Assembly (NCBI RefSeq): GCF_001189845.1
Contig: NZ_LFLZ01000004.1
Span: forward strand, 124,001-188,000
From: Bradyrhizobium tropiciagri
GTDB lineage: Bacteria; Pseudomonadota; Alphaproteobacteria; Rhizobiales; Xanthobacteraceae
Length of the DNA: 64,000 bases
Direction of reading: 5' to 3'
Positions within the stretch are counted from its first letter, which is position 1. Each line of letters opens with the position of its first letter. Both the position numbers and the translations under genes were made by a program. Under the pieces are notes generated by a model. The model made no database searches, had not been told where the DNA came from, and saw only the letters and a list, made by a program, of their open reading frames with translations. Shown here piece by piece: positions 17,669 to 37,725 of the stretch.

Positions 17669-18003
17669 GCTGTATGCGGCCGTCGGGTCGCGGAGGGCGT
17701 CCAGCAGCGACGCCTGGTCCAGTGCGGCATCACCCCAGGTGTAGTTTCGGGCCGGGCTGGAGTCTCGGTGCCAGAAAACCCTTGATATTCTAACTGGAAT
17801 TTCTCGCTGCATTCGAGTCCGCTCTGGTTCCATACGAGTCGGCAGGCCGAAATTCGCGGTTGGACCGGAGTCCCGCAAAGCCCCATTGGAATCTATTCAT
17901 CGGAAACGTGATCCGATAGCCAGAGCGTTTGCGCTGCGGTGCAACAAGTGCCGGCCGGAGTTCTGATATCTCCAAGCGCTGCTTTGGAACGTCACCCTGC
18001 TCA
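17669..18003. other. Junction between NRPS-like cassette and mobile island
   Basis: 335 bases with no supported gene. Composition changes from GC-rich chromosomal style to the more A/T-rich style of the island around 17760. A boundary of the Tn7-like element is expected here because tniQ ends at 18004, but I could not identify a convincing TGT terminus, target-site duplication or inverted repeat matching the other side. A short reading frame on the forward strand ends in RCNKCRPEF, resembling a zinc-knuckle tail, but is too short to call. Confidence 0.4.
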
Positions 18004-18816
18004 TTAAAGTCGTGAGGCGCGGATTCGGTCGATTGTATGCTTCACGGCTGAACGCCAACTAAACGAAAGATGATCGACGCTTCCAGGAAGCCCCTTAAGC
18101 AGCAACGTGCCGCTATCCAAGCCGCGGGGATGTGCCAATTCCTCAATGGATCCCAGATATTCTGCTAGTCGCATCAACCGCCCTGGATCGCAATCTCTGA
18201 TCGGCGAATACAGCGCCGAACGAGCTTCCAAGCGCTTCCGAGGCTGAAAGGAGTACATCGACGCCCAGAAACGGCTGACTTCGATTTGCCTTTCGCTTCC
18301 GAGGACCGCTGGGACCAATCTTATGTCTTGCCCGCAAGCACTGCACTTCAACAGATGGTGCATGCTCCGCCACCACAAGGGGTTGCCGCAGGGACAACGG
18401 TCGATCAAGCGTTCTCCAGACGTGGGATCACAACTAATCACTCGTATTGACCACAACGCGCGCAGGAAGGGCACTTCGCCTTTTGTTACTTGACCCGGAG
18501 CAATCCGGCGTTTGCCGCGCTCGAGTGCTGACCATGGGATTGGCTGATCGAAGAACGTCGTTATCGCGGGATCGACTTCGGAATGCATCATCGCGCGGAT
18601 GATCGCGGTCCCGCATCCAGTGACACATCCTAAGGCTATGGCATGTTCAACCCGCGTGGCGAGTGCGGCAAACTCTCTCGAATCTCTTCCTACTATCTGC
18701 GAAGTGAGTTCCGAAGTGGAGACGTCGTTTGCGTCGCATAGCCTGGACACCCAGCTCAGTAGGGACTCCCCATGAGCAGCAGGGAAAATTGCAGAAAGGC
18801 GAAGAAAGCTCGCCAC
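18004..18816 (-). CDS. tniQ: TniQ-family transposition targeting protein
   Basis: A 270-residue TniQ-family protein. The N-terminal signature PAAHGESLLSWVSRLCDAN is the typical TniQ opening, and the zinc-binding region is seen in DRCPCGNPLWW followed by LLKCSACGQDIR (two CxC/CxxC pairs). TniQ/TnsD proteins join the target-site selector to the TnsC regulator in Tn7-like and Tn5053-like transposition. It is the last gene of the reverse-strand module tnsAB-tnsC-tniQ, four bases after tnsC. It is short compared with TnsD (about 500 residues), closer to TniQ of CRISPR-associated and Tn5053 elements, so target recognition may rest with another protein. Confidence 0.88.
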   Translation of the reverse strand: MASFLRLSAIFPAAHGESLLSWVSRLCDANDVSTSELTSQIVGRDSREFAALATRVEHAIALGCVTGCGTAIIRAMMHSEVDPAITTFFDQPIPWSALERGKRRIAPGQVTKGEVPFLRALWSIRVISCDPTSGERLIDRCPCGNPLWWRSMHHLLKCSACGQDIRLVPAVLGSERQIEVSRFWASMYSFQPRKRLEARSALYSPIRDCDPGRLMRLAEYLGSIEELAHPRGLDSGTLLLKGLPGSVDHLSFSWRSAVKHTIDRIRASRL

Positions 18817-18820
18817 ACTT

Positions 18821-19852
18821 TTAGCGCCAAATCATCGCGCCTTTGCCCTTTGGCGCCGTGGGCAACTTGGGCTTCGCAAATCGCCTTTGTTCTACTTCCT
18901 TTCGCACTTCCTGTATTTCGGTGAGGGTAGGCGCATCATCGCGCTTAAATGGATTGAATTTGAGCGGCGAGTCCCGCGCCATCTGGAGGCGCCATGTTTC
19001 GGCAAAATCGTCACGCGTGACGGTATATGGGGAATTGCGTCTCTTTTCCTTACGCTCCCTAACAACAGTAAGAAGGGTCTCACGGACCAGCGCAACGATT
19101 CCTCCAGGAGAACCCCAGGAGCCTGCCCAGAAACATTTGGCCCAATCGTCTGTTGCCAGTATCAGCTTGATTCCGAGCTGATCTAGGAGTGAACGCAGCT
19201 CTTGCTGAATAACTAGCAAGAAATCGTGGACTTTGCCCAAGTCCGCTCCGCGAGTGTATGCAAGCGGAGCGAGATCTACAAACTCCGCAAAATGTCCGAC
19301 CATGTGCAGAAGCTGCCCCGCCAGTGCAGAAGTCCCCGTCCGGCCTGACAAGATGATTGGCGCAACTCCAGATGCAATAATTGCCGCCAAGACGTCGAGA
19401 GTCTCCTCGGTTAGCAAATGGGCATTGTCGACGGCAAGCAACGCCGGCTTGCGTTCGTGCCTCTCAATCCGTTTGCAAAGGTATTCGGCCAGCCGGGGCA
19501 CATTGCCGAGCCCGATTATTGGCGTACCCAGCGCGCGACACAGTAGCAATCCCAAAGCGCTCGCGTTGGTGGGTGACCTGCATTCTGTACGACAGGTCCA
19601 TCCAGCAATGGGCGAAACATAGTTGCTCCGGATATCACCACTGATGAGGTTCAGCACCCTAGTCTTGCCTAACAGTGGTTCGGCTTCCATAACCAGCATC
19701 TGCGCGGGTTGCAGCGGACTTCGATAGACGAGTGCGTGAGCGCGTTTGACCACAGCGCATTGATCTGGCAGATCGACGTGGATGCGCGTTATCGTTTCGC
19801 GCAACTGCGCTTCAATCGTGTTGCTCGCCGGTTTGGATGCGTCAGTACTCAT
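18821..19852 (-). CDS. tnsC: TnsC/TniB-like AAA+ transposition regulator
   Basis: A 343-residue AAA+ family protein in the TnsC/TniB position. The P-loop region at residues 56-64 is EAEPLLGKT: the GKT is kept but the leading glycine of GxxxxGKT is not. The Walker B region at 137-145 is LLAVDNAHL, with asparagine where the catalytic glutamate is expected. Sensor 1 is plausible at PIILSGRTGTS. The C-terminus (about 280-343) is basic and proline-rich. TnsC proteins form filaments on target DNA and activate the TnsA/TnsB transposase. The gene overlaps the end of tnsAB by 11 bases, so translation is coupled. The degenerate Walker motifs suggest weak or absent ATP hydrolysis. Confidence 0.85.
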   Translation of the reverse strand: MSTDASKPASNTIEAQLRETITRIHVDLPDQCAVVKRAHALVYRSPLQPAQMLVMEAEPLLGKTRVLNLISGDIRSNYVSPIAGWTCRTECRSPTNASALGLLLCRALGTPIIGLGNVPRLAEYLCKRIERHERKPALLAVDNAHLLTEETLDVLAAIIASGVAPIILSGRTGTSALAGQLLHMVGHFAEFVDLAPLAYTRGADLGKVHDFLLVIQQELRSLLDQLGIKLILATDDWAKCFWAGSWGSPGGIVALVRETLLTVVRERKEKRRNSPYTVTRDDFAETWRLQMARDSPLKFNPFKRDDAPTLTEIQEVRKEVEQRRFAKPKLPTAPKGKGAMIWR

Positions 19853-22800
19853 CGTCGTTCACGCTGGAATCGTTGGTTGGGCTAAAATTGCGAGGATAAT
19901 CTTGAGTTTCGGGTTGAACGGTATCGGGCCAGTCGTCCATCAGCCGAGCGCGCGCGGCTGCTGGGTCCGATGCCAAGTCGGCCTCAGGCAGAAGATTGGA
20001 ATGTGGAGCCTCATGATGAGGGGGGACCGGCTCGTCCTGCAGCGGAAATGGCGTGGCACCGTGGGACGTCATTAGCTGACCGAGTCGAGCTACCTGACCG
20101 ACCGTCCTTGTAGTTGCTCTACGCTTCATGACCTTCTCAACCGCGCGCCGAGTAACCTCCACGTAGGTATCTGCCAATAGTTGCTCCGTAAGCTTCTGGC
20201 GCTTCTTTTTCGCCTTCATTGCAGCGTTATGGATGATTTCGTGAACATCCATTGATTTGCCCGGAGCATAGCCTCGGTAGAGACAGTCGATCTCGGGCCG
20301 CTTCCGCCATCCGCCGGTCTTTGGGTGGGGATCGTGGATGATAACGTTGGTGATATCGTCGGGGCGCATCCGCATCTCTACCTGCGGATTGCCTTTTTTA
20401 TGTGCGTGGTGATCGGACCTGATTTTTTGAACGGCGGGTCCGTTGTATGGAACACCCTTCCATACAACGCCTTCCCTCGTTGCCGTTCCCAAAATGCTCA
20501 CGCGGAGTTCGCGATCGAGCTCTTCTTCTGAACTGGCAGTATCGGTCGACCAGCCTGGATGCGTCTTCTGATAATGCCGCCATGCATCGCGAGCCGAGTG
20601 TGTGCGTGTCCGCGCAACGTGGTTCGCATACCGATTGCAGACCCAGAGAATAAACCGACGATCGAGCTCGTCTATAGCCAACAGTTCGCCTGGGGTAGCT
20701 CGTTTCTCCGGGCGCACTAAGACATTGCGGCCGATCGCTCCAGGCAGTTTTGAGAAGAAGTCCGTTTCGACGACACCGAAGAACCGCTCAATGTGCGGTC
20801 GCCTCTTCGGTTTTTCCTTCTCAGCAGCCTCAATCTCAATCCCGAATTTGCCTGAGGCCCTTACAACGTCACGGGCGAGGTTTGCCTTGCCATGATCAAG
20901 CGAGATTATCTTGGGGAAGCCGCCTGCTAACCAATCCTGCGCTCCATGGTGACTATAGCTTGGTTTGTCTCTGCAGATATGGGCGTACGCGCGCATGATA
21001 TCTGCTTCGCTTGGGCCACCAACCGACCAGGCGTAGCCAGCGGGCCAACTTGTTGTGGTGTCTATGCCGGCGATTAGCCACAAGCGAGGAATCCGAATTC
21101 CCGCAAGCTCACTTAGAAATTCCGCTTGAGCTGGATATGTGTTCTCAAGGTCGATCAAGTGCCAATCGAACTCGACCCTCGTAAAGGGCTCTTTTGGAAT
21201 CGGAAGCTTGCCCACGATGTCGTAGGTCTGGCGAGCGATTTTGCGTCCGAGCGTTGCTTCGCAAAGATCCATGCCCGGAAGTGACGAAATCAGATTGTCA
21301 ACTGCTGTGCGACCGATGTAGGGCAGTTGATCTTCGGAGGACCGCGATGCGTTCTTGGCGTCTATACTTTGGTTCACCCTGAGAACTGTGCCCGAAACGC
21401 TCTCAAATTCTCTGGTCGCGAAATCGGTCTCGATGACATCCAATGCAGCCCGCTGCACCGGTTTGTCGGTGCGCGCTGGATGATGGGCAATCGTTCGACC
21501 GTCGACCAATTGGCTTGCCGGAATCACGTCCAGATGAGCAACCCGCTTCAGGGTTTTCGCGACCGTCTTCCAGCTCGGTTGCTTTCCGAGGGGGATACCT
21601 TCGTCTTGAGCAAGGTTTGCGATCAGTTCGGCGAGATCTCTCGGCGGATGGTGCGGCTCGGACTTTCCACCTTCCTCACTCGGGCCGGTTATGTGCAACT
21701 TGGGAAGCCCTTCCGACTGGCGTCGGCGAAACTCTTCTCTGATCAGGGGAATAAAAGTCCTATTGTCCCAAACATGCGCCTGAGGTTTCCCAAGGCGTTC
21801 ATTGCTAATCATTCCCTTCGCCGCCGCTTCGTGCGCACGCGACGGGCACACACGAATTCCGCGATCGAGGCGCACAAGGATTCGTTCGGAAAATTCGGTA
21901 CGTAAGCGCCAAGCAGAACGGTTGATTGGTGTAGCGCCGTCTTCCGGTTCGAAGCAAAATAATCCCGTAGTAGCGCGCCTTTTGTAAAAGAACACGGCAT
22001 CCCAAAATTGATACCGTTCTCCGATTTTCATTGGGAATGGAGGATTGTCATCGGCATTAGCTCCGGGATCTCCGGGCCAATCCTCATACAGGCCGGGTAG
22101 GGGAACGGCGTCTGTCAGACGCTGAGATAGATTGTTCATCATGGCTGCGACCGTGTATGAACCAAGATCAATGCTGCCGAGACGCACGGTCGACCCGTGG
22201 TTGATCGGACCCAAATGAAGATCAATTGTGATCGTTCCGTCGGCGTGGAGAGCGAGGGCGCGACGCGGATCGCCGGTCCCCAGGATTGTGATCACGTCGC
22301 CGAGAAGCATGGGGCCGTGGGCCAGCGCGGAAAGAACTGCGTTCCGCGCATTGGCATCAACACGGACGCGCCTCGCTCGCCAAATTTCGTCGACGCAGTC
22401 AGCGAGAGGTAGACGATACAAATCCTCGCTTGTTACCGTTTCAAACAGGAGCCCCTTCTGCGCGTAGGCGCGAGCGATCGCGCCAAACTTATCTGCCAGC
22501 CAAGGAGCATAGGCGAATCCGGTTACGCCCTTCACGCCGAGACGAACAAATCCGCTAGGTCGCTCGACCAGAAAATCCGTGACGTGGTCGACGATCCGTC
22601 CGTCGACTTCAAATCGAATAATCTCCGGCTGCGAAACCGCCGATAGGGCGCGACGTACAAGGCGCTCAAACCATAAGGTGCGGCGCTCGTTCTCACCCTC
22701 CCAAGTGATTTGTGTATCGCCAAAGACCGGACTGATGCCTTTCTTGGTCCAAAACAACTTCATCAGTTCGCGAACAGGCCCTCCGTCGGCCATCGTGGCG

Positions 22801-22862
22801 ATGCCAATCGTTTTGACTGGGGCATTCCAGTTGGTTGCGGCGTCTCGATTTCGTCTGCCCAC
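19842..22862 (-). CDS. TnsA-TnsB fusion transposase
   Basis: A 1006-residue fusion of both Tn7-type transposase subunits. Residues about 50-230 look like TnsA: a restriction-endonuclease-like core with Glu in WEGENERR (E59), SQPEIIRF, Asp in HVTDFLVERPSG (D96), Lys in RLGVKG (K111), then an RVRVDAN-x-helical domain. Residues about 420-870 are the TnsB/Mu-type integrase: Asp566 in RVEFDWHLID, Asp656 in KIISLDHGKAN and Glu692 in PHIERFFGVVE, giving a D-D-35-E arrangement, followed by a Mu-type beta-barrel and a basic C-terminal tail (about 900-1006) that would contact TnsC. A fused TnsAB implies cut-and-paste transposition, with the nuclease cutting 5' strands. The gene starts the tnsAB-tnsC-tniQ operon; repeats lie in the 800 bases upstream. 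Confidence 0.87.
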   Translation of the reverse strand: MGRRNRDAATNWNAPVKTIGIATMADGGPVRELMKLFWTKKGISPVFGDTQITWEGENERRTLWFERLVRRALSAVSQPEIIRFEVDGRIVDHVTDFLVERPSGFVRLGVKGVTGFAYAPWLADKFGAIARAYAQKGLLFETVTSEDLYRLPLADCVDEIWRARRVRVDANARNAVLSALAHGPMLLGDVITILGTGDPRRALALHADGTITIDLHLGPINHGSTVRLGSIDLGSYTVAAMMNNLSQRLTDAVPLPGLYEDWPGDPGANADDNPPFPMKIGERYQFWDAVFFYKRRATTGLFCFEPEDGATPINRSAWRLRTEFSERILVRLDRGIRVCPSRAHEAAAKGMISNERLGKPQAHVWDNRTFIPLIREEFRRRQSEGLPKLHITGPSEEGGKSEPHHPPRDLAELIANLAQDEGIPLGKQPSWKTVAKTLKRVAHLDVIPASQLVDGRTIAHHPARTDKPVQRAALDVIETDFATREFESVSGTVLRVNQSIDAKNASRSSEDQLPYIGRTAVDNLISSLPGMDLCEATLGRKIARQTYDIVGKLPIPKEPFTRVEFDWHLIDLENTYPAQAEFLSELAGIRIPRLWLIAGIDTTTSWPAGYAWSVGGPSEADIMRAYAHICRDKPSYSHHGAQDWLAGGFPKIISLDHGKANLARDVVRASGKFGIEIEAAEKEKPKRRPHIERFFGVVETDFFSKLPGAIGRNVLVRPEKRATPGELLAIDELDRRFILWVCNRYANHVARTRTHSARDAWRHYQKTHPGWSTDTASSEEELDRELRVSILGTATREGVVWKGVPYNGPAVQKIRSDHHAHKKGNPQVEMRMRPDDITNVIIHDPHPKTGGWRKRPEIDCLYRGYAPGKSMDVHEIIHNAAMKAKKKRQKLTEQLLADTYVEVTRRAVEKVMKRRATTRTVGQVARLGQLMTSHGATPFPLQDEPVPPHHEAPHSNLLPEADLASDPAAARARLMDDWPDTVQPETQDYPRNFSPTNDSSVNDDEY

Positions 22863-23136
22863 GCCAGCGCCCTCTCTAGTGGCAGCCGCTAAGGACTTCG
22901 CTGGCTCAGGTCATCGCGGCCTGAGCTTGGGTTAGGGCGATCACTCGCCGTTGCGCAAAAGGACCGGAACTGCGAATTAGGGGAGCTCCCGACGCTGGAT
23001 TGCCAGCAAACGGCGTACCGAGTGTCAGGGGAAGTGGATGGGTGGAGTGGAGCGGGTTCCCCTTGCACATCAGCAAGGCAGTCCTTGCGAAACATCCTTC
23101 AGCCCAGACGACCTCTGCCATTGGCTTGATCCTCAC

Positions 23137-23424
23137 AGCTAGGATTCGGCGCCCTTTGGAGGCGCCTAAGAACGTGCGCGACCTTGGTCGATCCGCGGTG
23201 TTCCCGACCGACCAAGTCGGGTCAAGTTTAGCGTGTGGAGGGAAGGCTGGATAGGGGGTAATTTCCAAAAAACAATAAATTATTTCAAGGATTTGCTGTC
23301 GCTTTTTCAAGGATTCGTTTAACGAAGCGGGCGCCCTTCAAGGATTCGATTGTCGGCAGGAGAGTGCTGAATTTCAGGAGCTTTGTCCGATCGAATCCAT
23401 CCTTTAAGGATTCGATGATCGGCC
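23137..23424. repeat. Repeated AAGGATTCG motifs upstream of tnsAB
   Basis: Four close copies of TTCAAGGATTCG occur in the same orientation at 23284-23295 (ending TTTG), 23306-23317, 23337-23348 and 23403-23414 (TTTAAGGATTCG), with a weaker TAGGATTCGG at 23140. The third and fourth copies extend to about 20 matching bases (GATTCGAT then GTCGGC or ATCGGC). An inverted half (GATCGAATCC) at 23390-23399 forms a dyad with the fourth copy. Spacings (22, 31 and 66 bases) are irregular, unlike CRISPR. Array-like sites near a tnsAB gene could be transposase-binding sites of a transposon end or an operator for the tns operon. The rest of 22863-23669 holds no supported gene; a GGCGCC hairpin is at 23148-23166. 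Confidence 0.6.
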
Positions 23425-23669
23425 GTGACCGTAGCCTTGTCTTTTCCCAATGCACTATCGTTGGGAACTCTTGGCTTAAGCTCGACCACAGCACGTGCTG
23501 AGCCGGCATCTCCCGCGCCACGCATCGACGTCCCGCGGTTTGGGGCATAAAAACGCGGTCGCGAACAGCTATGGTAATAAAATACCTAAGAGATGAGTTG
23601 CGTGCTCAGGGGGGGGTCCTTGAATCATGATTCGCCCTATCTTTGTGCTTACCCGATCGAAGGTAGGGC

Positions 23670-24203
23670 TCAGAGTAGTGCTTCGGGATCTACGTCTACA
23701 AAAGCATCCAGCGTTCGATCGTAACGCCGACACCGAGCAATCGGTATGTCCGTTTCAACATATTCTCTGACAATGTGAGCATTCGCAAAGCCTAGGGGAG
23801 TGAGCACCGGCGTGCCGCGCGCATGGTCAACGCAGGCTGTGACAAGGCAACCGTAGTCGCTGAACAGCTGACCTTCGGCGCCGCAGCTTGAGCAGGTGCA
23901 CACCGACGCTGCCTCGGCCAGTGCAACTGCTTCGTCGATCGCATGTTCGACTTCTTGAGGAAGTCCTACTTTGGCGGTCCAATAAATCTCTAGCCGTCCC
24001 CATTTCTCGCTGATCTGAACGAAGCGTACGGGATAATCTGCCGCGGCGTTCGAGACCCGATCCACGAGCTTGATTACGATACGGCGCCAGCCTGGCCCGC
24101 ACTTGGGAAAACCGGGGGCGAACGGAGCGCCATGGAAGCTGCGAACGAACAGTTTCTGATGACTTCGGATAAGCGCTTGCTCCCAGCTTATGAGTTCGAC
24201 CAT
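23670..24203 (-). CDS. Conserved protein with CxC/CxxC zinc-like motif
   Basis: A 177-residue protein of a type often found on proteobacterial mobile elements and not functionally known. Its recognisable pattern is a GWRRIVIKLVDR helix, an EKWGRLEIYW beta-hairpin, then an alanine/glutamate helix leading to a cysteine cluster, CTCSSCGAEGQLFSDYG, and ending TACVDHARG. The cysteines and histidine would bind zinc. It follows the TnsA-like gene by 15 bases on the same strand and lies 800 bases before tnsAB. It is likely soluble; no membrane segment or signal peptide is visible. Confidence 0.7.
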   Translation of the reverse strand: MVELISWEQALIRSHQKLFVRSFHGAPFAPGFPKCGPGWRRIVIKLVDRVSNAAADYPVRFVQISEKWGRLEIYWTAKVGLPQEVEHAIDEAVALAEAASVCTCSSCGAEGQLFSDYGCLVTACVDHARGTPVLTPLGFANAHIVREYVETDIPIARCRRYDRTLDAFVDVDPEALL

Positions 24204-24218
24204 GGCAATGGCTTTTCA

Positions 24219-24920
24219 CTAGGTGGGAAAGGGTATCCCGAGGGAGGGGGTGACACGATCGGCCGCGTTGGAAACAACCGAGTTCGTATTCAGCGGCTTG
24301 GAAACATTAGTCGCGATCAATCCGCGGCAGATCAGCGCGCAGGCTGTCGGCATCGGATCTCTCAACCCAACCTTCGCGCCCAACGTTCGAATTGCCATAC
24401 GGCGACGTCGAGCCAGAGCAGACACGACACTCTCGATCACAGGCGCCGGAACGGGGTGGTCACGATATCGCCAGATCCGGCGGCAGTTGGCTGCGCGGGG
24501 CTCGGCATCGATTATCGAACTGTCGATCTCGATCAAACGTATCCCACTTCCTTGAAGGGCAATCAGTAGCAGCCCTTGGGTATCGATATCTCGGTAGGGT
24601 CGCTTGTCGATAATGTCGTAGGCGACGCGACCATCGTTCCTGTCCGCCACAATCATCCGAACCGGAACTTCGTCGCCATCGAGCGCGAGAGATTCCATGA
24701 AGCTGATTGACCGAACGGAGGGGTCGAGCGAGAGCTGAATGCGGAGATCGTGCAATGAAGGAGAGCGGCTAGAAGTGATCGCTGCTTCGAGTGCACGCTG
24801 ATTGGCTAACAGTTTGCTGTTGAACCTACCGCCCGTGGAGTTGGTCCGCGCAGGGAGATTCCGAGCGCGATGGGATTTCACTCCATTGGGTGGCAGCTCC
24901 TTGCGCCCCATCGGTTCCAT
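24219..24920 (-). CDS. TnsA-like protein, probably catalytically inactive
   Basis: A 233-residue protein that I align by eye with the TnsA half of the nearby TnsAB fusion: SVRSISFMESLALDGDEVPV pairs with the SQPEIIRFEVDGRIVDHV segment, RMIVADRNDGRVAYDI with TDFLVERPSGFVRLGV, and the later NCRRIWRYRDHPV with DEIWRARRVRVDA, followed by a similar helical domain ending in a hydrophobic strand. In this pairing the catalytic Asp is replaced by Met and the Lys by Ile, so nuclease activity is doubtful. It may be a structural or regulatory TnsA paralogue. The gene is first in a reverse-strand pair with the zinc-motif protein, and an AGATAG-N4-CTATCT dyad lies 85 bases upstream of its start. The alternative reading is an unrelated hypothetical protein. 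Confidence 0.6.
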   Translation of the reverse strand: MEPMGRKELPPNGVKSHRARNLPARTNSTGGRFNSKLLANQRALEAAITSSRSPSLHDLRIQLSLDPSVRSISFMESLALDGDEVPVRMIVADRNDGRVAYDIIDKRPYRDIDTQGLLLIALQGSGIRLIEIDSSIIDAEPRAANCRRIWRYRDHPVPAPVIESVVSALARRRRMAIRTLGAKVGLRDPMPTACALICRGLIATNVSKPLNTNSVVSNAADRVTPSLGIPFPT

Positions 24921-25004
24921 TTCCTCGGCAAATCCAACAACAGATAGGCCCGGAATACCTCGAGGCCCGCAGCAACACTAAGCAGTCAGTTAGGTTTAGT
25001 CAAT

Positions 25005-25028
25005 AGATAGCGAGCTATCTAGCTATCT
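25005..25028. promoter_or_regulatory. Operator-like dyad AGATAG-N4-CTATCT, site 1
   Basis: AGATAG-CGAG-CTATCT at 25005-25020, followed by a further CTATCT half-site at 25023-25028. It is preceded by AGTCAATAG (24998-25006). A 23-base core (25006-25028) is matched at 21 of 23 positions by the site at 32014-32036, in the same orientation. It lies between the reverse-strand TnsA-like gene and the forward RHH gene, so it could serve both. Confidence 0.7.
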
Positions 25029-25153
25029 ATGATTAAGGCTATCGTGTTGTTGATACAGGAGAAGTTTGCTCGGCCTGAGGCCGCATGGGGGCGGGCGACG
25101 TGATGCCAATTTTCAGTCTTTCGACTCGGGCGCAGGAATGGTATTCAGCGGAC

Positions 25154-25171
25154 AGATAGTCGGCTATCTAG
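25154..25171. promoter_or_regulatory. Operator-like dyad AGATAG-N4-CTATCT, site 2
   Basis: AGATAG-TCGG-CTATCT at 25154-25169, a perfect 6-4-6 dyad centred about 37 bases before the GTG start of the RHH gene. The position overlaps where its promoter should lie, suggesting autorepression. It shares half-sites and spacing with sites at 25005 and 31997-32036. Confidence 0.68.
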
Positions 25172-25198
25172 GGACCCGAGCTGTCCAGGAGAGAATTG

Positions 25199-25396
25199 GT
25201 GCGAAAGCCCCGGGAAGATGCCTCTAGTGTCCGCAAAAGAGCTGACGGACGCAGTCAGCTTCTAATTTATCTGCTGCCAGACATAATTCGGGAGCTTAAA
25301 GTTGCAGCCCTTTCGCAAGATAAGCCAGCCTACGAGCTCGCCGAGAAGGCGATCGTGCAATACCTGAAGAAGGTCAAGCGCAGGAGTAAATCATAA
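25199..25396 (+). CDS. Ribbon-helix-helix (CopG/Arc-like) regulator
   Basis: A 65-residue protein with the hallmark of ribbon-helix-helix regulators: a beta strand QLLIYLLP, then helix IIRELKVAALSQD and helix AYELAEKAIVQYLKKV, ended by a basic tail. The N-terminus is basic and probably disordered. RHH proteins bind as dimers to short dyads of about six bases per half-site, which fits the AGATAG-N4-CTATCT elements beside this gene and upstream of the cargo operon. Start is GTG at 25199 with AGGAGAG eight bases before; a TTG at 25196 is adjacent. It might alternatively be the antitoxin of a toxin-antitoxin pair, but no toxin-like gene is adjacent. Confidence 0.75.
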   Translation: MRKPREDASSVRKRADGRSQLLIYLLPDIIRELKVAALSQDKPAYELAEKAIVQYLKKVKRRSKS

Positions 25397-25531
25397 GCGC
25401 CCGCGGGGCTGCAGAGCTGGATTTCGCTCGACTAGGTGGTCGACTGGATTGGTGCCGTCTGGCCGAGCTGGTGCAATCGCGGCTTTGCAAATAGAGCCAC
25501 CTTTTATGACCGTCGCGTGCTATCTTCATAA

Positions 25532-25687
25532 ATGAAGCCGGCTGCAGCTGACCTATTCCCGCTTTCCGCCGAGGAAAGTAAGAGCGTAGTACCGTCCCTA
25601 ATCCAGGTCGCGAGCCGCGAATTTGACTTCGTTTCGAGTTCAATTTCTGGCGCTGGAGTGAGCGGTGCGGTCACGAAGTCCGTTTGA
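25532..25687 (+). CDS. Possible small protein before the recombinase-like gene
   Basis: An ATG-initiated frame of 51 codons (MKPAAADLFPLSAEESKSVV...) that overlaps the start of the recombinase-like gene by 23 bases, an arrangement that could couple their translation. No ribosome-binding site is clear and I recognise no family. It may simply be leader sequence. Confidence 0.25.
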   Translation: MKPAAADLFPLSAEESKSVVPSLIQVASREFDFVSSSISGAGVSGAVTKSV

Positions 25688-26750
25688 AAATGGTGCGCCT
25701 GACAAAAGTGAGGTGGTCTTTCTAGAAGACGGAAGACCTGCTGAGTTGCCTGGATTTGATCCATTCTTCGGCGGTTGGATCGCGCAGCTCAGGAAACAGA
25801 ATAAGTCTCATTCAACAATCTCTACATACGCGCCAGCGCTTTCTCGTTGCATCGCGACGATCCAATCAAACTGCATTTTCGAGGTGAACGTGCAGACAAT
25901 ATCGTCTGTCGATCGCTTAGTTCTTGAGCAAATGCAGCAAACTATGATTGAAGACGGCGCGCCCGATCCAACTATCAGGTTGCGAATAGCTGCGCTTCGT
26001 TCGTTCGCGAAATTTCTTGTTCAGCATGGTCACGCTGTGTGCGGAGCCTTGCTGGCGAGTCGCTTCCCTCGAATTGCACCCCGATCGATGCACACCCCTG
26101 GAGAGGAGGACTGCAACAGTCTGATACGCTGTGAAGAATCGGAAGACGAGACGTGGGAGCATGTGAGGAACAGAGCGATTTTGCGATTGATTTCAGTCGA
26201 TGGCTTAACCATCGCCGAGACATTGGCAATCGATCGTGAGCATTTGCGCCTCGTCGATTGCACCCTGAATATTGTCAGTGGGAGGTGTCCTCGTGTTATT
26301 GTGATTGAGGCCGACGTCGCCGAGGACATTGTAGCCTACTTGGAAGTTTGCCCTCACGAAATTGAAAATGGATCAGCCCTGTTCGTCGGATCGCGCGGCG
26401 AGCGGTTGACCGCGAGAGTCATTCAGTTGGCCGCCAGGGATCTACGCAACCAACTCGGGCTACACAATGAGACAACTCCACGCGCACTAAGAAGAAGCCG
26501 GGTCTTACAGTTGCGAGCGAGCGGCGTACCTGTACAAGAGATAATGCAACGGCTTGGCATCTCGGCTTCGGCGATCGGCGCAATACTAGAGGAAGCTCCC
26601 CTCAGTCCTCTGGAATTGCAGCAGGCCATTCTCAAAGTTGAATCAATTTGGAACCGGATTCGCCGGTTGCAGACGGACACCAATGGGGCGCAATGGAAAG
26701 CGCAGAAGCCAGAGCTCAAACGGAAAAGTCGCAAACCGACTAAGACGTAA
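25665..26750 (+). CDS. Tyrosine-recombinase-fold protein with lost catalytic residues (TnsF-like?)
   Basis: A 361-residue XerC/XerD-like protein. Residues 30-125 form the SAM-like DNA-binding N-terminus (STISTYAPALSRC, IRLRIAALRSFAKFLVQHG); residues 145-310 follow the catalytic fold (AILRLISVDGLTIAETLAI, RVIVIEADVAEDIVAYL, LFVGSRGERLT). The active-site positions are degraded: the first Arg of GLR is Thr182, the Lys segment reads SGRCPR, HxxRH reads R273-A-L-R276-R277, and the GH and Tyr positions are GI and Ile/Leu. Only one of the canonical residues remains, so it cannot recombine DNA. Tn6022-type Tn7 relatives use TnsF, an inactivated tyrosine recombinase, for target selection; this gene sits near tnsAB-tnsC-tniQ and may do likewise. 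A basic tail (KRKSRKPTKT) ends it. Start GTG 25665 follows GGAGTGA. Confidence 0.75.
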   Translation: MRSRSPFENGAPDKSEVVFLEDGRPAELPGFDPFFGGWIAQLRKQNKSHSTISTYAPALSRCIATIQSNCIFEVNVQTISSVDRLVLEQMQQTMIEDGAPDPTIRLRIAALRSFAKFLVQHGHAVCGALLASRFPRIAPRSMHTPGEEDCNSLIRCEESEDETWEHVRNRAILRLISVDGLTIAETLAIDREHLRLVDCTLNIVSGRCPRVIVIEADVAEDIVAYLEVCPHEIENGSALFVGSRGERLTARVIQLAARDLRNQLGLHNETTPRALRRSRVLQLRASGVPVQEIMQRLGISASAIGAILEEAPLSPLELQQAILKVESIWNRIRRLQTDTNGAQWKAQKPELKRKSRKPTKT

Positions 26751-26959
26751 GATCGTGCCAAAGTGAGCATTCTCCATCGAACTGGCTCCGCTACAAGTGC
26801 CGAGCCGTGAAGATCGTCGCGGGCCAAAGGTGGACACCGATGACCGATAGTCGGGAAATCGCGTCATCAGCCACGTACAATTTCCGAACTAAGGGCACCC
26901 TATCGCCAGGGCGTCGGACTAACCTCGTGCTGACGACGTTCATTGGTAGTTGCTACTGA

Positions 26960-27313
26960 TCAGGTCGATGTTGAGGCTTCTTCGGTTGTTTGCGTTCCAA
27001 GCCGGTAGACCCGATTCCACGTGCGGGCCCATTTGCGGTTGCGGTCAAGCCAGATCAATGGCGAGGTGCGAATTGTCGCGGTGTCATAGAGCTGCGGATG
27101 CCCGGTGACGCGTCCCAACAATACGACGACCCTTGGCCAAGGATCTCGTTCGCGCTTGAACCGCAACACAGTCGTGCGCCAGCACTCGAGCAGAGGGGCG
27201 CAGGAGAGTTCGGGCGACGACGGTTCTCCGCCCTTCAGATAAGATTCGAAGTCGCGCTTCAACTTCGCCGCGGCATCACGATCCTCTGGGGGCATGTGGA
27301 AAGTCCCAATCAT
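26960..27313 (-). CDS. Small island protein, paralogue A of a tandem pair
   Basis: A 117-residue protein of unknown function. It is clearly a paralogue of the gene immediately upstream (27329-27661): both share a YLKGxxPxxxEL segment, APLLExW, a GxVxxxPxLxD stretch and the C-terminal IWLDRNxKWART plus YRLG. This copy carries a tail of TQTTEEASTST. It is the last gene of the cargo operon, 15 bases after its paralogue. Soluble by appearance; no catalytic motif seen. Confidence 0.65.
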   Translation of the reverse strand: MIGTFHMPPEDRDAAAKLKRDFESYLKGGEPSSPELSCAPLLECWRTTVLRFKRERDPWPRVVVLLGRVTGHPQLYDTATIRTSPLIWLDRNRKWARTWNRVYRLGTQTTEEASTST

Positions 27314-27328
27314 TTGTCCGACTTGGCG

Positions 27329-27661
27329 CTAACCCGCTACGTCGGACCGGCTTCCGAGTCGGTAGAGAAGATGCTTGGTTCTCGCCCATTTTTCATTGCG
27401 GTCGAGCCATATCAGTATTGTCATCGTAACCAGAACTTCGTCGGTTAGCCCGGGACGTTTGGCGACATGGCCACTGAGCGACATGGTGTCCTTGAACAAC
27501 ACCGAGGATGCTGTCTCGATTCTTTCGTACACAAGGTTCACACACCACCGCTCTAGGAGAGGGGCGCTTGCAAGCTCAACCGGTCTGGGTCCTTGGCCCT
27601 TGAGATAGCGCTCGACATCCAGTCTAAGCACTCGGTCGAAATGGTCCTGTACAAGCGACAT
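27329..27661 (-). CDS. Small island protein, paralogue B of a tandem pair
   Basis: A 110-residue protein related to the downstream gene (26960-27313), with shared YLKGQGPRPVELASAPLLE and IWLDRNEKWART motifs. It starts directly at the AAA+ ATPase stop (ATG at 27661 and stop at 27664-27662 are adjacent), so the two are translationally linked, which hints that it works with that ATPase. The divergence between the copies is considerable, so the duplication is old. Function not recognised. Confidence 0.68.
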   Translation of the reverse strand: MSLVQDHFDRVLRLDVERYLKGQGPRPVELASAPLLERWCVNLVYERIETASSVLFKDTMSLSGHVAKRPGLTDEVLVTMTILIWLDRNEKWARTKHLLYRLGSRSDVAG

Positions 27662-29044
27662 TCAGTGCCTCACCGCAGTGGCATTGCGCGCCTCAATGGT
27701 GGCTGCAACGATTTTCTGCAGCTTGCGGATGCTGAATCCGGACCGTTCCCAGGACCGGGCAATTAGGTCGAGCTCATCATAGGCAAGTGGCCAAATGAAT
27801 GCCTGGTCGCCGTTCTCGATCGCGAGATCCTGCAATACGTTGGCTGCAAGGAGCGGCAGATCACTCACCCGAGGCGCTGGGATCTTGATGATACGGAAGC
27901 GATCCCGCAACGGGGCGGGCAGGGCATCGATCGAGTTTGCAGTCGCGATATAGGAGATAAAGGACAGGTCTAGCTCGACATCGAGTGAGACGTCGCGGTA
28001 CCTCGCCGCGGTCTCGCTCTCGAGGAACGGCAAAAGGGCGTCCCATAGTCGGCCGTTGTGCGATGACGTGCCAGCTTTCTCAATCTCGTCGACCATCAGA
28101 ATTGGGTTGGCGATGCGCATCTGATGGATAGCGCGCACAGGTGCTGATGGTGTGGTGTTACTCCATCCTTTCGGACTGCCGCCGAACATGTTGTCAGAGG
28201 CGCTGGCCCCGTCATAGCGGTAGACGCCGATCCCGAGCAGATCACCGATCCTGCGCACGAGGCGCGACTTGCCAACGCCGGCAGGCCCGGTCAGAAGCAG
28301 AGGTTTGAGCCGTACTGGTTCACCGTTGCCCAGGTTGCGCAGTACGAGATCGATTGCGGTGGTGGCGTGCGGATACTCGGTCATCAACGTGGCGCGCACC
28401 CTGCCAAGGTCGCGCGCTACGACCAGCGGAAGCCTCAGATCGAGGAGGTCCTTGAAGCTAGACTGCCTATCAAGAGCGGATGCCTTGTCCTTGGGCATGA
28501 CGACAAGCCCGGGCTCCGTGGGCTCATCTTGCTGCTCTCCCTTGTTCTGTTCCCGCGAGGCTGGCGGCTCATGTGAGGAGGCGTCCTGATCCCGCGTCTC
28601 GAGATAGGCGATGTAAAAGATGCTCCGCGGTTCGTCCTTGAAATCGCCCCTTGCCGCACGCCACCAGATGCCGAGGCGCCGAAGCGCCAGAGGTTTACAT
28701 ACATTGACGATGGGCGAGTCCCATAGGTGCTCAATGGCGTAAGCCAATTGCGGCAACACAACTTCGAAGGTTTTCTGCTTACCGGGATCGGCCGCGAGCA
28801 TGAGCGCCGCGAGCGCCTCCTCGCCGCGGCCAACCGCGAACAAGCCGTCGGCGAGCTTCTCGCAGGCCTGCTTGCTGCGTTCCTTCCTGCCCGACCAGAA
28901 ATCGGCCGCAACTTGATCGCGAAGACCTTCGCTCTCGCCAATGCGCGCCCAGAACAGCAGTGCCGCCGGGGGCCAGCCAGACAGACACAGAAGCTCGACC
29001 GGCAAAGGCATCAATACCGAATCGCTTGTTACGTCCTGAGCCAT
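27662..29044 (-). CDS. Lon-like AAA+ ATPase without protease domain
   Basis: A 460-residue protein. Residues 1-150 are helical and unlike known domains; 150-200 is a polar linker; 205-450 is an AAA+ module closely resembling that of Lon protease: Walker A GPAGVGKS (253-260), Walker B PILMVDEIEKAG (314-325), sensor 1 ISYIATANS (363-371), and arginine fingers in LPAPLRDRFRII (375-386), ending with an alpha-helical lid. There is no serine-lysine protease domain after it, so it is an ATP-driven remodeller or sensor. It sits in the middle of the island's cargo operon with a metallophosphoesterase upstream. Such ATPase plus phosphoesterase sets occur in defence and stress modules, but no function can be assigned. 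Confidence 0.82.
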   Translation of the reverse strand: MAQDVTSDSVLMPLPVELLCLSGWPPAALLFWARIGESEGLRDQVAADFWSGRKERSKQACEKLADGLFAVGRGEEALAALMLAADPGKQKTFEVVLPQLAYAIEHLWDSPIVNVCKPLALRRLGIWWRAARGDFKDEPRSIFYIAYLETRDQDASSHEPPASREQNKGEQQDEPTEPGLVVMPKDKASALDRQSSFKDLLDLRLPLVVARDLGRVRATLMTEYPHATTAIDLVLRNLGNGEPVRLKPLLLTGPAGVGKSRLVRRIGDLLGIGVYRYDGASASDNMFGGSPKGWSNTTPSAPVRAIHQMRIANPILMVDEIEKAGTSSHNGRLWDALLPFLESETAARYRDVSLDVELDLSFISYIATANSIDALPAPLRDRFRIIKIPAPRVSDLPLLAANVLQDLAIENGDQAFIWPLAYDELDLIARSWERSGFSIRKLQKIVAATIEARNATAVRH

Positions 29045-29137
29045 TACTCAGTTCCTCGATGCGCGCAGGCTTGGCTGCGTATGATCGCCTTGGTGTAGTA
29101 CGGCGAGGAGGCCGCGAGGCGTCGCCGAAAAGCCGCA

Positions 29138-29386
29138 TCACAATTTGCTCAGATCGTTCGGTACCTTGCCGAACGAGCAGATGATTTTGGCGTCCCGAAA
29201 ATCTCCCGTCGCCGGATCACCCGTCCGGCTGAACGCAAGCGCGCCGACGTAGCCGGGCTTGTGCGAATACGCCTTGGCGCGCATCACTGCCGAATTCGGG
29301 TTGAAGCACTCGACAGCCTCGCCAGGGAGGATGCCGTTGCAGGTGGCGACGAAGGGCAGGGCGACGTAGTAGGTGACCTCGGACAT
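29138..29386 (-). CDS. Small conserved-looking protein of the cargo operon
   Basis: An 82-residue protein, MSEVTYYVALPFVATCNGILPGEAV..., that I do not recognise by function. The ATG at 29386 is preceded by GGGAGG at the right distance, which strongly supports translation; an ATG at 29401 is in frame but less well placed. It has an alternating hydrophobic pattern with SAVMRAKAYS and ending KVPNDLSKL, likely a small beta-rich fold. It is between the AAA+ ATPase and the 287-residue protein on the same strand. Confidence 0.6.
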   Translation of the reverse strand: MSEVTYYVALPFVATCNGILPGEAVECFNPNSAVMRAKAYSHKPGYVGALAFSRTGDPATGDFRDAKIICSFGKVPNDLSKL

Positions 29387-29407
29387 TCCAGGACCTCCCA
29401 AAAAAGC

Positions 29408-30271
29408 CTAAAGTCGTTCCAGGATTTCGCAGATGGCGTCCTGCTCATCGTCTTCGAGAAGACTGAAAGGGTTACCTTCGCGCGCGGCGAATGACTGGTA
29501 GTCGCCAGTCTGCCCGTCGGGCGCCCGCGCTTCCTGCACGTATTTCATCCCGAAATTGCGTTTGAACGCCTGGATCGTCCAACCATCGACCGTGAACTCG
29601 CCGACGCCATGGTACAAAAGTTTCCAGCCATCCTGTGGAGAGACGACCTGTGGGCGTGCAGACCCGCTTGCGATACGCCGCAAGATGTCCACCACCTCCG
29701 CAACATCGACTTGGCCCGGCGGCGGCGGCGGAAACTGCCGCGCTGCTGGTAGATGACGACGCGCCTTGGCCAGGATCTCCGCGATCTCCGGCAGGAGCGG
29801 ACCTTGGTCTTCTGCCTCGTACCACACCCGGCGATGAAGCTCGGACAGCGCGTCTAGAGAATCGTGGAATGCGTCATCTGCGATCCGTCGACGGCGCCAG
29901 TCGCGCCAGAGCCTATCGATCGCGTCGAGCCAGGCCGCCGCCCATTTGCCGGCCACAGGTCGGCGCCACGCAACGACGAGGTGAGGTCCGTTCCATTCTG
30001 GCGGCGCGGCCGCGCGAAGCCGCGCTTCCAGCTCGATCCGGTCAGGCTCGTTCATGGCCCAGGTGCGGGCATCCCGTATTTCGATCTCGACGTGAGGCCC
30101 CATAAAATATCGGAGCGCTTGCTGATCCCACCTTTGCTCCTGAAGGATCGTAGCCGCGGCCGCTGGAATGCCCGCGGACTCCAGAGCGGCGAGGACCGCC
30201 TTCCACTGCGCGTGGTCGGTTACCAGTCCCATCGAGTGACGATTGCTATTCTCCAGCGCATCCGTACTCAT
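29408..30271 (-). CDS. Protein of unknown function, cargo operon
   Basis: A 287-residue protein with two visible parts. The N-terminal part (about 1-200) is helical and tryptophan-rich (WRRPVAGKWAAAWLDAIDRLW, RRVWYEAEDQGPLLPEIAEIL); after a proline run (FPPPPPGQ) the C-terminal 85 residues form a small domain with DGWKLLYHGVGEFTVDGW and MKYVQEARAPDGQTGDYQ, similar in style to short domains seen in proteobacterial hypothetical proteins. Start ATG at 30271; the frame is open to 30415 but the extension is arginine-rich and overlaps the neighbouring gene. No catalytic signature seen. Confidence 0.62.
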   Translation of the reverse strand: MSTDALENSNRHSMGLVTDHAQWKAVLAALESAGIPAAAATILQEQRWDQQALRYFMGPHVEIEIRDARTWAMNEPDRIELEARLRAAAPPEWNGPHLVVAWRRPVAGKWAAAWLDAIDRLWRDWRRRRIADDAFHDSLDALSELHRRVWYEAEDQGPLLPEIAEILAKARRHLPAARQFPPPPPGQVDVAEVVDILRRIASGSARPQVVSPQDGWKLLYHGVGEFTVDGWTIQAFKRNFGMKYVQEARAPDGQTGDYQSFAAREGNPFSLLEDDEQDAICEILERL

Positions 30272-30401
30272 TTTGAGCTCTTGTCTTTCGGCAGTCGTAA
30301 GCAGGGCGGACGCGTCCTCAGCTCCCGGTCGTAAAGTCGGCCTATTGCTTCGATACTTTCGATCAAGCGGTCGACCACACCGGCGCTGAAGAACAAGCGC
30401 C

Positions 30402-30680
30402 TTACCCGACCCCACTAGAGTTCGACGGATCAGACTTCACGACCTCGTCTGAAGCCTTCGCCAGCAACGCCCATACCGATTGCGCCCGAGCGTGTCCGTG
30501 TACGAGGCAACGAACTGTGCGAGGTGGAGTGCCGGCTATGGGATTGTTCGTTTCGCTCGCCACGATCTGATAGTCCGAGATCTCTGTCAGGTCAGAAATG
30601 TTCGCTATTCGCATCGCAGCGATCGTACGCCGCATCGGTTCGTATCCGCCCGGTATGAGATCGACCGTTATCACCAGCAT
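30402..30680 (-). CDS. Small conserved protein, cargo operon
   Basis: A 92-residue protein, MLVITVDLIPGGYEP at the start, with RRTIAAMRIANISDLTEISDYQI and a C-terminal GHARAQSVWALLAKASDEV. I recall this pattern from rhizobial and Bradyrhizobium hypothetical proteins on plasmids and islands, without known function. The compact beta-rich start and amphipathic end suggest a small soluble protein. It is separated by 190 bases from the metallophosphoesterase gene, which it follows on the reverse strand. Confidence 0.68.
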   Translation of the reverse strand: MLVITVDLIPGGYEPMRRTIAAMRIANISDLTEISDYQIVASETNNPIAGTPPRTVRCLVHGHARAQSVWALLAKASDEVVKSDPSNSSGVG

Positions 30681-30871
30681 CCTTCATCTCCTACGAATGA
30701 GAAGCCATTTTCTCGCGCACGCACCGGATGCGCTTGGCGCCGTCGAAGATTCGGTACTAACCCGTTCCCATACGCGGGGTAGGGCTCTTGAGCCGCGTTG
30801 ACGGAACAATGGAATTGCATCCGATGCCGCCTCTCGTTTCGAGTGCTCGCAGTGCGGCGTCCTTCCCAACC

Positions 30872-31714
30872 TTAGATTTCAATGACGAAGTTCGGATTGA
30901 AGTGCGGGTTGTCCCAGGCGTGCTGCTGCGGCAGCCATGGCCCGTAACCCTTTGCGTTCGACACTACGCGCGTCACGCCGATCACGGTGTCCTCAGACTC
31001 ATGAGTGTGTCCGTAGATCCAGAGATCGGCGGGTCTCAAAGGGCCGCGTCCATCATCGTCGGACGCAGGTCGCATCAAGGCCGTCAGGTCGCTGCGGTAT
31101 GCGGCGTCGAGTACCTCTTCCTCGGAGAGGCGCGAGCCGGGATAATGAGGCGCCACTCGATAAGCGCGGCTCGGTATCGGTGCGTGATGGGTAACCACCA
31201 CCAATGGCCCGCTTCGCGGCTTACGCATCTCGATATCGAGAAAGGTACGCGTTTGTATGTGGCGGCCCAACGCGTGGTGAGGCCGAAACCGCTGCTTATG
31301 ATGCGCCATCCTGATCTTCCGAAAATCGTTCATCCGATCAGCCGCGACTCTCATCGCGCGGTATGGGTCGCCAAACATGTCAAAATCCGTCCAGGCTGTG
31401 CCGCCTGCGAAGGTCACCTCGCCAAGCTTGATCCAGCGATCCTGCAACACGAATACCTTGGTTCCTTCCGCGGCGGCCATCGCCTTTTGGACGGTCCCGT
31501 CGATGTCGGTTCCGTAGGCCTCGTGATTGCCCGGGACATAGATCACTGGATTGTGCGGGACGCGCTCGAGTAGCCATTTCACGCCCCGCTCCATACGCGG
31601 GATAAGGTCGCCGGCGACCACCAGGACGTCGAATTGCGGGCGCGCTTCACCAGCCGGCAGGTCCCAGCCACGTGTCAGTTCAACGTGCAGATCTGACAGG
31701 ATCCACAGACGCAC
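30872..31714 (-). CDS. Calcineurin-like metallophosphoesterase
   Basis: A 280-residue phosphoesterase with the full set of metal-binding motifs: SDLHVE (residues 6-11), VVAGDLI, VPGNHEAYG, VVTHHAP and YGHTHES. These ligate a two-metal centre that cleaves phosphomonoesters, phosphodiesters or nucleotides. Start GTG at 31714 is preceded eight bases upstream by AAGGAG; an open frame extends to 31933 but has no family resemblance. It is the first gene of the reverse-strand cargo operon ending near 26960, and a dyad operator cluster lies about 270-320 bases upstream. Substrate unknown; pairing with an AAA+ protein suggests nucleic-acid or nucleotide processing in defence, as inference only. Confidence 0.88.
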   Translation of the reverse strand: MRLWILSDLHVELTRGWDLPAGEARPQFDVLVVAGDLIPRMERGVKWLLERVPHNPVIYVPGNHEAYGTDIDGTVQKAMAAAEGTKVFVLQDRWIKLGEVTFAGGTAWTDFDMFGDPYRAMRVAADRMNDFRKIRMAHHKQRFRPHHALGRHIQTRTFLDIEMRKPRSGPLVVVTHHAPIPSRAYRVAPHYPGSRLSEEEVLDAAYRSDLTALMRPASDDDGRGPLRPADLWIYGHTHESEDTVIGVTRVVSNAKGYGPWLPQQHAWDNPHFNPNFVIEI

Positions 31715-31985
31715 GGCTAAAGCTCCTTCTTGTTGCGTCTCTTTGAGAGAAATCCTCCGTTTTGAGCAGCGGATCCTCATCCGGAACTTCGTCCCGCTTA
31801 AGCAGGTCGCGCCAGCCTCGCCGCACTCGGAGGAGACATGGGCCGCAGCGTGCGCGCCAGTCGGTGGAAGGATGAGGTCGGAGGCAGCCCCAACCAGTAC
31901 GACACTCGAAGCTCGAACGACACTTGTCATCATACGGCCTCAGCACGACTTCCATTAAATAGAACAAAGCAGGAACATAAAGCCA

Positions 31986-32036
31986 AGTCAATAGCTAGAT
32001 AGCTCGATAGCTAGATATCGAGCTATCTAGATATCT
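31986..32036. promoter_or_regulatory. Operator-like dyad cluster, site 3, near the island's right edge
   Basis: A 51-base A/T-rich cluster: AGTCAATAG (31986-31994), an AGATAG-CTCG-ATAGCT unit at 31997-32012, then AGATAT-CGAG-CTATCT at 32013-32028 with a further ATATCT half-site. 32014-32036 matches 25006-25028 at 21 of 23 bases. It lies upstream of the metallophosphoesterase operon and close to the right boundary of the island, so it could be an operator for the RHH protein, a transposase-binding end, or both. The gap 31715-32109 has no other supported feature. Confidence 0.7.
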
Positions 32037-32109
32037 GAATCCGCTCGGCTCACGAGCTCATGTCATCGGAGAAAAGCGCAGTATCTTCTTGGCATCGCGG
32101 TAACAGTGG

Positions 32110-33069: not shown

Positions 33070-33156
33070 GTCGCTCTCCGGCTGAGGGGCGCGCTGCACG
33101 GCGCATCTGCTTGGTGCTTGGTCGAGGTGATTGTGCCGGCGAAGTTCATGTAAAGG

Positions 33157-33181
33157 GGTCCCCGGCCTTGGGCCGGGGACC
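33157..33181. repeat. Perfect GC-rich hairpin, possible solo arm of the palindromic repeat
   Basis: GGTCCCCGGCC-TTG-GGCCGGGGACC is an 11-base perfect stem with a 3-base loop. It has no following T run on either strand, so it is a weak terminator candidate; its sequence resembles one arm of the repeats at 7495 and 9632. Confidence 0.5.
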
Positions 33182-33244
33182 TCAGGGCCTCATCGAGTCC
33201 CGGGAGTATTAGGTGATCGATCTTCCCCTGAATTAGACCGCGGA

Positions 33245-33320: not shown

Positions 33321-33357
33321 CCAAAAGGTCGAATGCCTTTTTTAAGCTCTCCATGAT

Positions 33358-36865: not shown

Positions 36866-36917
36866 ATGCCGCTCTATCGACCGGCAATCGACCGCACCTC
36901 GAAAGGAGAGTTACAAG

Positions 36918-37697: not shown

Positions 37698-37725
37698 CAA
37701 CTCAGCCGATGGCAGTCGTCCGGCG

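Follow-up and report, generated by a model that had tools for sequence, protein, structure and literature searches.

How does a transposon whose gene set includes a tyrosine recombinase without its catalytic residues choose its target? This question is raised by the stretch of Bradyrhizobium tropiciagri DNA analysed here (64,000 nucleotides, positions 124,001 to 188,000 of contig NZ_LFLZ01000004.1; hereafter the window), which carries part of a Tn7-like element encoding a fused TnsA and TnsB (TnsAB), TnsC, a short TniQ and, on the opposite strand, a catalytically dead relative of XerC. XerC is the host enzyme that recognises dif, the site at which replicated bacterial chromosomes are disentangled. 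All our evidence comes from sequence and predicted structure, in the 9.77-Mb window genome (G000) and in its relatives. Our results show that, as judged from its ends and their surroundings, the element inserts at dif by DDE transposition, with a given polarity and offset and in association with the dead Xer gene, and we strongly infer that its target selector is this dead relative of XerC. The element thus very probably homes to dif and reads it via this protein.

TnsA, TnsB (DDE), TnsC and TniQ are encoded together, and both a 5-bp duplication and a clean empty site are present, which places the element among the Tn7-like transposons. On the minus strand lie tniQ (18004..18816; 270 amino acids; PF06527 at 34.2 bits, cut-off 27), tnsC (18821..19852; an AAA protein, PF13401, matching the TnsC of relative G062 at 43%) and tnsAB (19842..22862; 1006 amino acids, with family matches and conserved catalytic residues). 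An earlier sequence-only reading of this DNA had named the TnsC-like and TniQ genes after TnsAB, and both were found. It had also assigned to the fusion a TnsA set (E59, D96, K111) and a TnsB set (D566, D656, E692); the TnsB residues are invariant between the window protein and the TnsB of G062, and E59 and D96 are invariant in seven TnsA rows, while K111 falls outside the invariant list.

The terminal repeat TGTnGTTTCGGG is conserved, and was found by comparing the non-coding DNA beyond tniQ with the degraded relative G089 (locus L057), in which a perfect 27-bp inverted repeat marks one left-type and one right-type end. In the window, this end-pattern comparison gives the left terminal repeat TGTAGTTTCGGGCCGGGCTGGAGTC (17740..17764, plus strand), the only exact copy of the end pattern in its genome. 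Four TnsB-type sites follow on the plus strand (17746..17872, starting at 17746, 17801, 17822 and 17854), spaced nearly as in L057 (7295, 7349, 7370 and 7401); these sites were also used to build the weight matrix. The genome contains 40 three-mismatch matches, a number at the level of chance; the right-end candidate among them, at positions 234949-234973 of the same contig (C4), was accepted because it adjoins another TnsB-type site and because of the duplication and the empty site. The element thus ends in TGT/ACA, with four TnsB sites on the left and two on the right. Since CCAGG lies outside both ends (17735..17739 on the left, C4:234974-234978 directly after the right end), the element measures 93,234 bp (C4:141740-234973). 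The window holds positions 17740..64000 of it, and its right end, at window coordinate 110973, lies 47 kb past the window edge. The island of 17669-32109 drawn in the sequence-only reading was therefore about 79 kb too small. The G+C content of the element is 60.3%, against 64.9% in the fetched flanks.

The left flank was searched in 257 genomes of the genus and matched in 85. In three of them (G118, G164 and G141) it lies directly against the dif position; other strong matches, such as those in G133, G010, G088 and G065, are located elsewhere. In G164 the sequence runs uninterrupted through a single CCAGG (L139), a clean empty site, while 9 bp are missing in G118 and G141 is more diverged. 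This is the comparison that the sequence-only reading had proposed, and the recombinase-like gene lies inside the ends with the matched 5-bp duplication.

What lies at the other end? The 24-mer TTCGCATAAGGTATATTATGGAAT is found 27 bp past the right end, as the only dif match in that genome. With at most three mismatches it is present in 260 of the 265 Bradyrhizobium genomes, exactly once in 235 (table count); among the places listed, nearly every genome has one unchanged copy, and extra copies on other contigs have a different 6-base centre. It has the arm-spacer-arm layout known from published dif sites, such as the A. baumannii site (PMC10132070, partial text), and on these sequence features TTCGCATAAGGTATATTATGGAAT is dif. 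By the same layout, the window element is on the XerC-arm side. Copies of dif were also found on several second replicons in the genus set. When 30 dif loci were fetched, 28 aligned, on one side of dif, with the right flank of the window element for 0.7-1.6 kb, and none matched its left flank. From these alignments, the XerC-arm side of dif looks like a general insertion hotspot. Five of the 30 loci (L073, L083, L090, L093 and L095) have an adjoining Tn7-type right end; three belong to G062, G071 and G008, counted below as members, and the other two to G075 and G021.

The gene for the XerC relative (25665..26750, plus strand) lies 2.8 kb upstream of tnsAB, on the opposite strand. Its product, identified by family matches, alignment, tree and model, is a full-length XerC-like tyrosine recombinase and the putative dif-reading selector. 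It matches PF00589 (45.3 bits) and PF02899 (25.8 bits) above their cut-offs, and the XerC model TIGR02224 at E 4e-27, far below that model's cut-off. The SAM-like core-binding (CB) domain starts at residue 38 and is the only CB match. The positions of the catalytic R-K-H-R-H-Y set read T182, S205, R273, R276, I299 and L308, so five of the six residues are lost and the arginine of HxxR alone is kept, whereas all eight host XerC rows keep the six. The XerC-like protein described in the sequence-only reading, about 3 kb away and with its catalytic residues nearly all replaced, is thus confirmed. Over the seven dead rows, the first arginine, both histidines and the tyrosine are lost in all, the lysine is lost in six (G062 has K226), and the HxxR arginine is kept in all. 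A model predicted from 15 aligned rows (predicted local distance difference test score, pLDDT, 76.8; predicted template modelling score, pTM, 0.52) has the Xer fold over both domains, with Z scores of 20.7 to XerA (residues 30-314) and 18.8 to XerH on difH (residues 28-327), at large root-mean-square deviations (6.7-10.5). The profile and structure comparison proposed earlier therefore agrees with an Xer protein; no match to an integrase family with another catalytic set appeared, a systematic search for an alternative set not having been made.

In a tree of 17 rows, the branch that separates the seven dead recombinases from ten host Xer rows (nine XerC-like, and the window genome's own L001, taken as XerD by assumption) has support 100/99. 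This tree omits the second Xer unit of G062 and the masked copy of G193, and five other host integrase loci had no row. The order inside the dead group is unsure because several rows are long. For these sequences, a single domestication event is the simplest reading. The homolog in G415, encoded in a compact element of 21 kb, has 283 amino acids. In G062, the gene at L043:13854-15896 codes for a 680-amino-acid protein with two tandem units of a CB and a catalytic (CAT) domain, both without catalytic residues; this double-Xer protein belongs to the element on the opposite dif arm.

Is the association of this gene with dif general? The dead recombinase accompanies tns genes in ten genomes (G000, G062, G071, G107, G193, G008, G016, G415, G288 and G225), all found through recombinase or TnsB searches, G415 by the TnsB profile. 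Of the first seven relatives, six belong to the same genus and G415 to another family of the order, and profiles detect the dead-type recombinase, tnsA, tnsB, tnsC and tniQ in each. The dead Xer gene lies within about 3 kb of tnsA and, in the relatives, upstream of it. Nine of the ten have their right end turned towards a chromosomal or second-replicon dif, at a distance of 27-43 bp: 27 bp in G000, 27 bp (other arm) in G062, 43 in G071, 37 in G107, 36 in G193 (across two contigs), 31 in G008, 31 in G415, 42 in G288 and 41 in G016 (variant dif); in G225 a candidate end is 130 bp away. In G016, two different dif variants lie on one 222-kb contig (L110 and L118), with the right end beside the one at 210372.

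Matched 5-bp duplications flank all eight elements with both ends located: CCAGG in G000, AAGGA in G071, CAGGA in G107, GCCAG in G193, GTGTG in G288, CAACC in G008, TCGAT in G016 and CTGAT in G415. In G000, G071, G107, G193 and G288, the ends were set first by terminal-repeat similarity, and G062 and G415 had been opened before, or independently of, the idea of dif. In G008 the duplication matches only with TG..CA termini. For G415, a right end 11 bp from dif, picked by script, was rejected as it had no matched duplication; the accepted end shares the 9-bp terminus and repeats, has CTGAT on both sides and lies 31 bp from dif.

A profile of the seven dead recombinases was then run over 50 genomes, 47 with at least two recombinase matches, plus G021, G075 and G089. 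The known dead copies scored at least 395 bits and the next matches, host XerC genes included, at most 175, apart from two new copies in G288 (368 bits) and G225 (229 bits). G288, which had not contributed to the profile, fits fully, with tns genes, 42 bp to dif and GTGTG; in G225 the gene set is 69 kb from dif. Three Tn7-like or TnsB loci of the genus in which no dead recombinase was detected, the remaining full TnsB hits, all lie far from dif: that of G019 is about 959 kb away, that of G027 more than 4.6 Mb, and that of G017, where tnsB alone was detected, is on another contig. The TnsB profile search (cut-off 1e-30, at most three candidates scored) missed G071, G107, G193, G008, G016 and G288, and the dead-profile scan left out genomes with a single recombinase match, with G052 unopened. 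Prevalence is thus a lower bound, because few candidates were scored per genome and known members were missed. Close TnsAB relatives were absent from the 12 pattern matches in genome contigs and from viral contigs, and a profile search gave one match, Bradyrhizobium agreste CNPSo 4010, which corresponds to G062.

Several points weigh against a homing to dif through the dead protein. In G225, the sole candidate right end is the one at 130 bp, and the left end was not found; the element of G062 occupies the opposite, XerD-type, arm, and about 27 kb left of tniQ did not reveal its left end. Right ends lie 26, 26 and 39 bp from dif in G089, G075 and G021, genomes without a dead-type match, for which one has to assume that the selector was lost or acts in trans. 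For three of the eight elements, end placement made use of the duplication: the expected duplication guided the search for the left end of G016, the G008 terminus was put at TG so that the duplication would match, and the choice between two right ends of G415 was made partly on this basis. The Bradyrhizobium dif pattern finds no match in G415, whose putative dif was recognised by a relaxed pattern within 89 kb. The loci of G071, G107, G193, G008 and G016 were not opened blind, but after dif, or an end at dif, had been noticed. Finally, the spacing is variable (27-43 bp), and nine of the ten members come from one genus. With regard to the loci without a dead-type match, the G089 remnant (L057:398-424 and 7287-7313) adjoins a palindromic variant of dif on a contig of 1.3 Mb and has broken, inverted tnsB pieces; it was counted as rearranged because its ends face away from each other and its flanks differ. 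At L108 (G075) and L114 (G021), Tn7-type right ends stand at dif and tns genes were not found in the adjacent 20 kb, which makes decayed or very long elements the candidate explanation.

How could a dead recombinase guide the transposase? Modelled on Tn7 in general and on the TnsF-TniQ pair (PMC10293859, partial text), our proposal is that the dead Xer keeps an XerC-type DNA-binding fold and would bind a dif arm, or pair there with host XerD, bend the DNA and recruit the short TniQ. TnsC would then receive the position from TniQ, and the element would be inserted by the TnsA/TnsB transposase at a near-constant offset, right end towards dif. The 24-bp dif core would remain intact, because no cleavage is expected of the dead protein and the element goes in outside dif. 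Since dif is present on almost all bacterial chromosomes and, here, on several second replicons, it would be a nearly universal, safe address. The sequence-only reading had suggested a related or independently derived selector for a site that was then unknown; the comparisons made here support this, with dif as the target and with the selector role as the part that we infer.

Could the transposon instead read the host XerC and XerD on dif, the dead Xer being an adaptor or modulator? This would recall the 'res site hunters' Tn5053 and Tn402, Tn7-related elements that sense a res site occupied by its resolvase. In its favour, the 'dif site hunters' of the IS1202 family (ISAjo2 group) in Acinetobacter, about 1.5 kb long and with a TnsB-like transposase only, without helper, insert 5 bp from the XerC site, and contact with host XerC has been proposed for them (PMC10132070, partial text); the ends at dif in G089, G075 and G021, where no dead-type match was found, point the same way. 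We nevertheless consider this explanation unlikely, in view of a dead Xer gene kept beside tns genes in ten genomes despite divergence (33% between the window and G062 proteins), and of the three opened Tn7-like loci that have no dead Xer and are not near dif.

Far less probable is that the dead recombinase represses the element's genes, like the regulators with a tyrosine-recombinase fold of SPbeta-type phages, and that TniQ alone picks the target. The model does match YopR, MrpR and SroF (Z about 14-16), and a putative operator cluster is nearby, but these matches are weaker than those to XerA and XerH, it is another small protein that adjoins the operator-like repeats, TniQ is short (270 amino acids), and an address beside dif suits an Xer relative far better. 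We give hardly any weight to the idea that insertions generally favour the replication terminus, or are tolerated there, without recognition of dif: one side of dif is indeed variable and the left flank matched none of the 30 dif loci, but this strongly disfavoured explanation fits poorly with a right end turned towards dif at 27-43 bp in nine of ten elements, an arrangement that recurs at variant dif sites on further contigs (G016; 26 bp in the G089 remnant) and in a different family (G415).

Other genes lie near the tns genes. A second, separate TnsA-like protein (24219..24920, minus strand) was detected by profile comparison (hhalign to a TnsA profile, probability 97, E 1e-10) and by VIA-align (Z 9.3 to TnsA 1f1z); Foldseek alone gave it no significant match (best E 0.03). 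One or two copies per element occur together with the dead recombinase in all members except G415 (L043:12551-13207; L101:2589-3281 and 4717-5304; L106:4029-4781 and 5101-5931; L109:18610-19317; L178:4520-5197 and 5749-6363), and by eye the nuclease residues look altered. The protein may be an additional component of the complex for targeting or of the transposase. Next to it, a 177-amino-acid protein (23670..24203, minus strand) has CxxC pairs by eye and no family match. Palindromic repeats TAGATAG...CTATCTA at 25004..25171, with a similar motif in L043 at about 13250, are putative operators of a small regulator, and a repeat search found a second cluster of the same operator-like repeats (31986..32038) upstream of leftward genes. 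A 65-amino-acid protein that looks ribbon-helix-helix-like by eye (25199..25396, plus strand; counterpart at L043:13562) has no Pfam match; in both the window and G062 it precedes the dead recombinase, beside such repeats. Protein and repeats are perhaps an element-wide regulator and its operators.

An AAA ATPase resembling the Lon ATPase domain by its family matches (27662..29044, minus strand) is an accessory or cargo gene. AAA proteins, Lon-like or, by eye, FtsH-like, recur near tns genes (window 27662-29044; L055:4464-6428; L113 about 5113-7302), also in G027, a genome without a detected dead recombinase. PADLOC scans of 20 element proteins, the remainder of the 93 kb being outside the scan, gave no Cas effector among the matches listed; TniQ and TnsB match the CRISPR-transposon-type TniQ and TnsB models. 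The cargo in the window (37726-46947 and 60989-63013) includes an acyl-CoA dehydrogenase, an AMP-binding ligase, a thiolase, a 3-hydroxyacyl-CoA dehydrogenase and cytochrome oxidase subunit I, and such metabolic and oxidase cargo seems unusual for a Tn7-like element. Past the window, the element also codes for an E1-E2 protein (L069:3921-5714; PADLOC 754 bits) and for a 1967-amino-acid protein with Ser/Thr kinase, AAA, GAF, PAS and histidine-kinase ATPase domains (L067:2023-7926).

Previous work has characterized elements that share some of these traits. TnsF of Tn6022-type elements is a relative of tyrosine recombinases without catalysis, proposed to bend the target DNA and hand over to TniQ and TnsC; it has 498 amino acids, an N-terminal zinc-finger region of about 199 amino acids, CB1, CB2 and a partial CAT domain, is encoded with tniQ, and reads comM (PMC10293859, partial text). 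As with TnsF, an inactivated tyrosine recombinase occurs here in a Tn7-like element with a short TniQ. Unlike TnsF, as judged by its published description, the window protein has no listed zinc-finger family and has one CB and a whole CAT domain (two CB-CAT units in G062), its gene lies upstream of tnsAB on the opposite strand instead of in an operon with tniQ, and the element sits beside dif and not in comM. Two Acinetobacter plasmid loci opened as a source of TnsF proved to be other Tn7-like loci and were not used.

The window element and the IS1202 family share a TnsB-like DDE transposase, TGT/ACA ends, 5-bp duplications and a position on the XerC-arm side of a dif or pdif site; in contrast to that family, in which a single transposase has no further Tn7-type proteins beside it (PMC10132070, partial text), here 93,234 bp carry tnsAB, tnsC and tniQ. 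The 5-bp duplication indicates DDE transposition, unlike Xer strand exchange. Elements of the IMEX type and dif modules recombine into dif via host XerCD, with no duplication; they too are located at dif, but in our case dif is outside the element and the 5-bp duplication lies 27 bp from it. Like Tn5053 and Tn402, the element is Tn7-related and aimed at a site-specific recombination site; unlike them, it brings its own dead tyrosine recombinase and sits at dif.

The literature searched, preprints and most subscription papers aside, gave no published Tn7-like element at dif. A term search of the main text of PMC10293859 found none of the words dif site, XerC and XerD, and in the main texts of a survey of Tn7-like cargo (PMC8649781) and of a review (PMC11406308) it found neither dif nor XerC. 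We therefore describe as new a Tn7-like element with a new type of selector and a new target. As to its origin, we favour, with some reserve, a separate and ancient domestication of XerC, distinct from that of TnsF, that would have yielded a dead, full-length, dif-reading selector serving a clade of Tn7-like elements. This protein would mimic XerC, maybe with XerD and FtsK and in step with segregation, the double-Xer form would clamp both arms in some elements, and the second TnsA-like protein would be a conserved part of the complex.

What does this mean for the family and its hosts? A target has been identified for a group of Tn7-like elements whose selector was previously unknown, and this target is among the most conserved and least disruptive sites of bacterial genomes. 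How an inactive recombinase becomes the guide of a transposon is now testable, since relatives with one or two Xer units, at chromosomal and at variant dif sites, are at hand. A compact inserter that acts beside dif could serve as a broadly usable integration tool. In Bradyrhizobium itself, the element accounts for part of the gene turnover beside dif.

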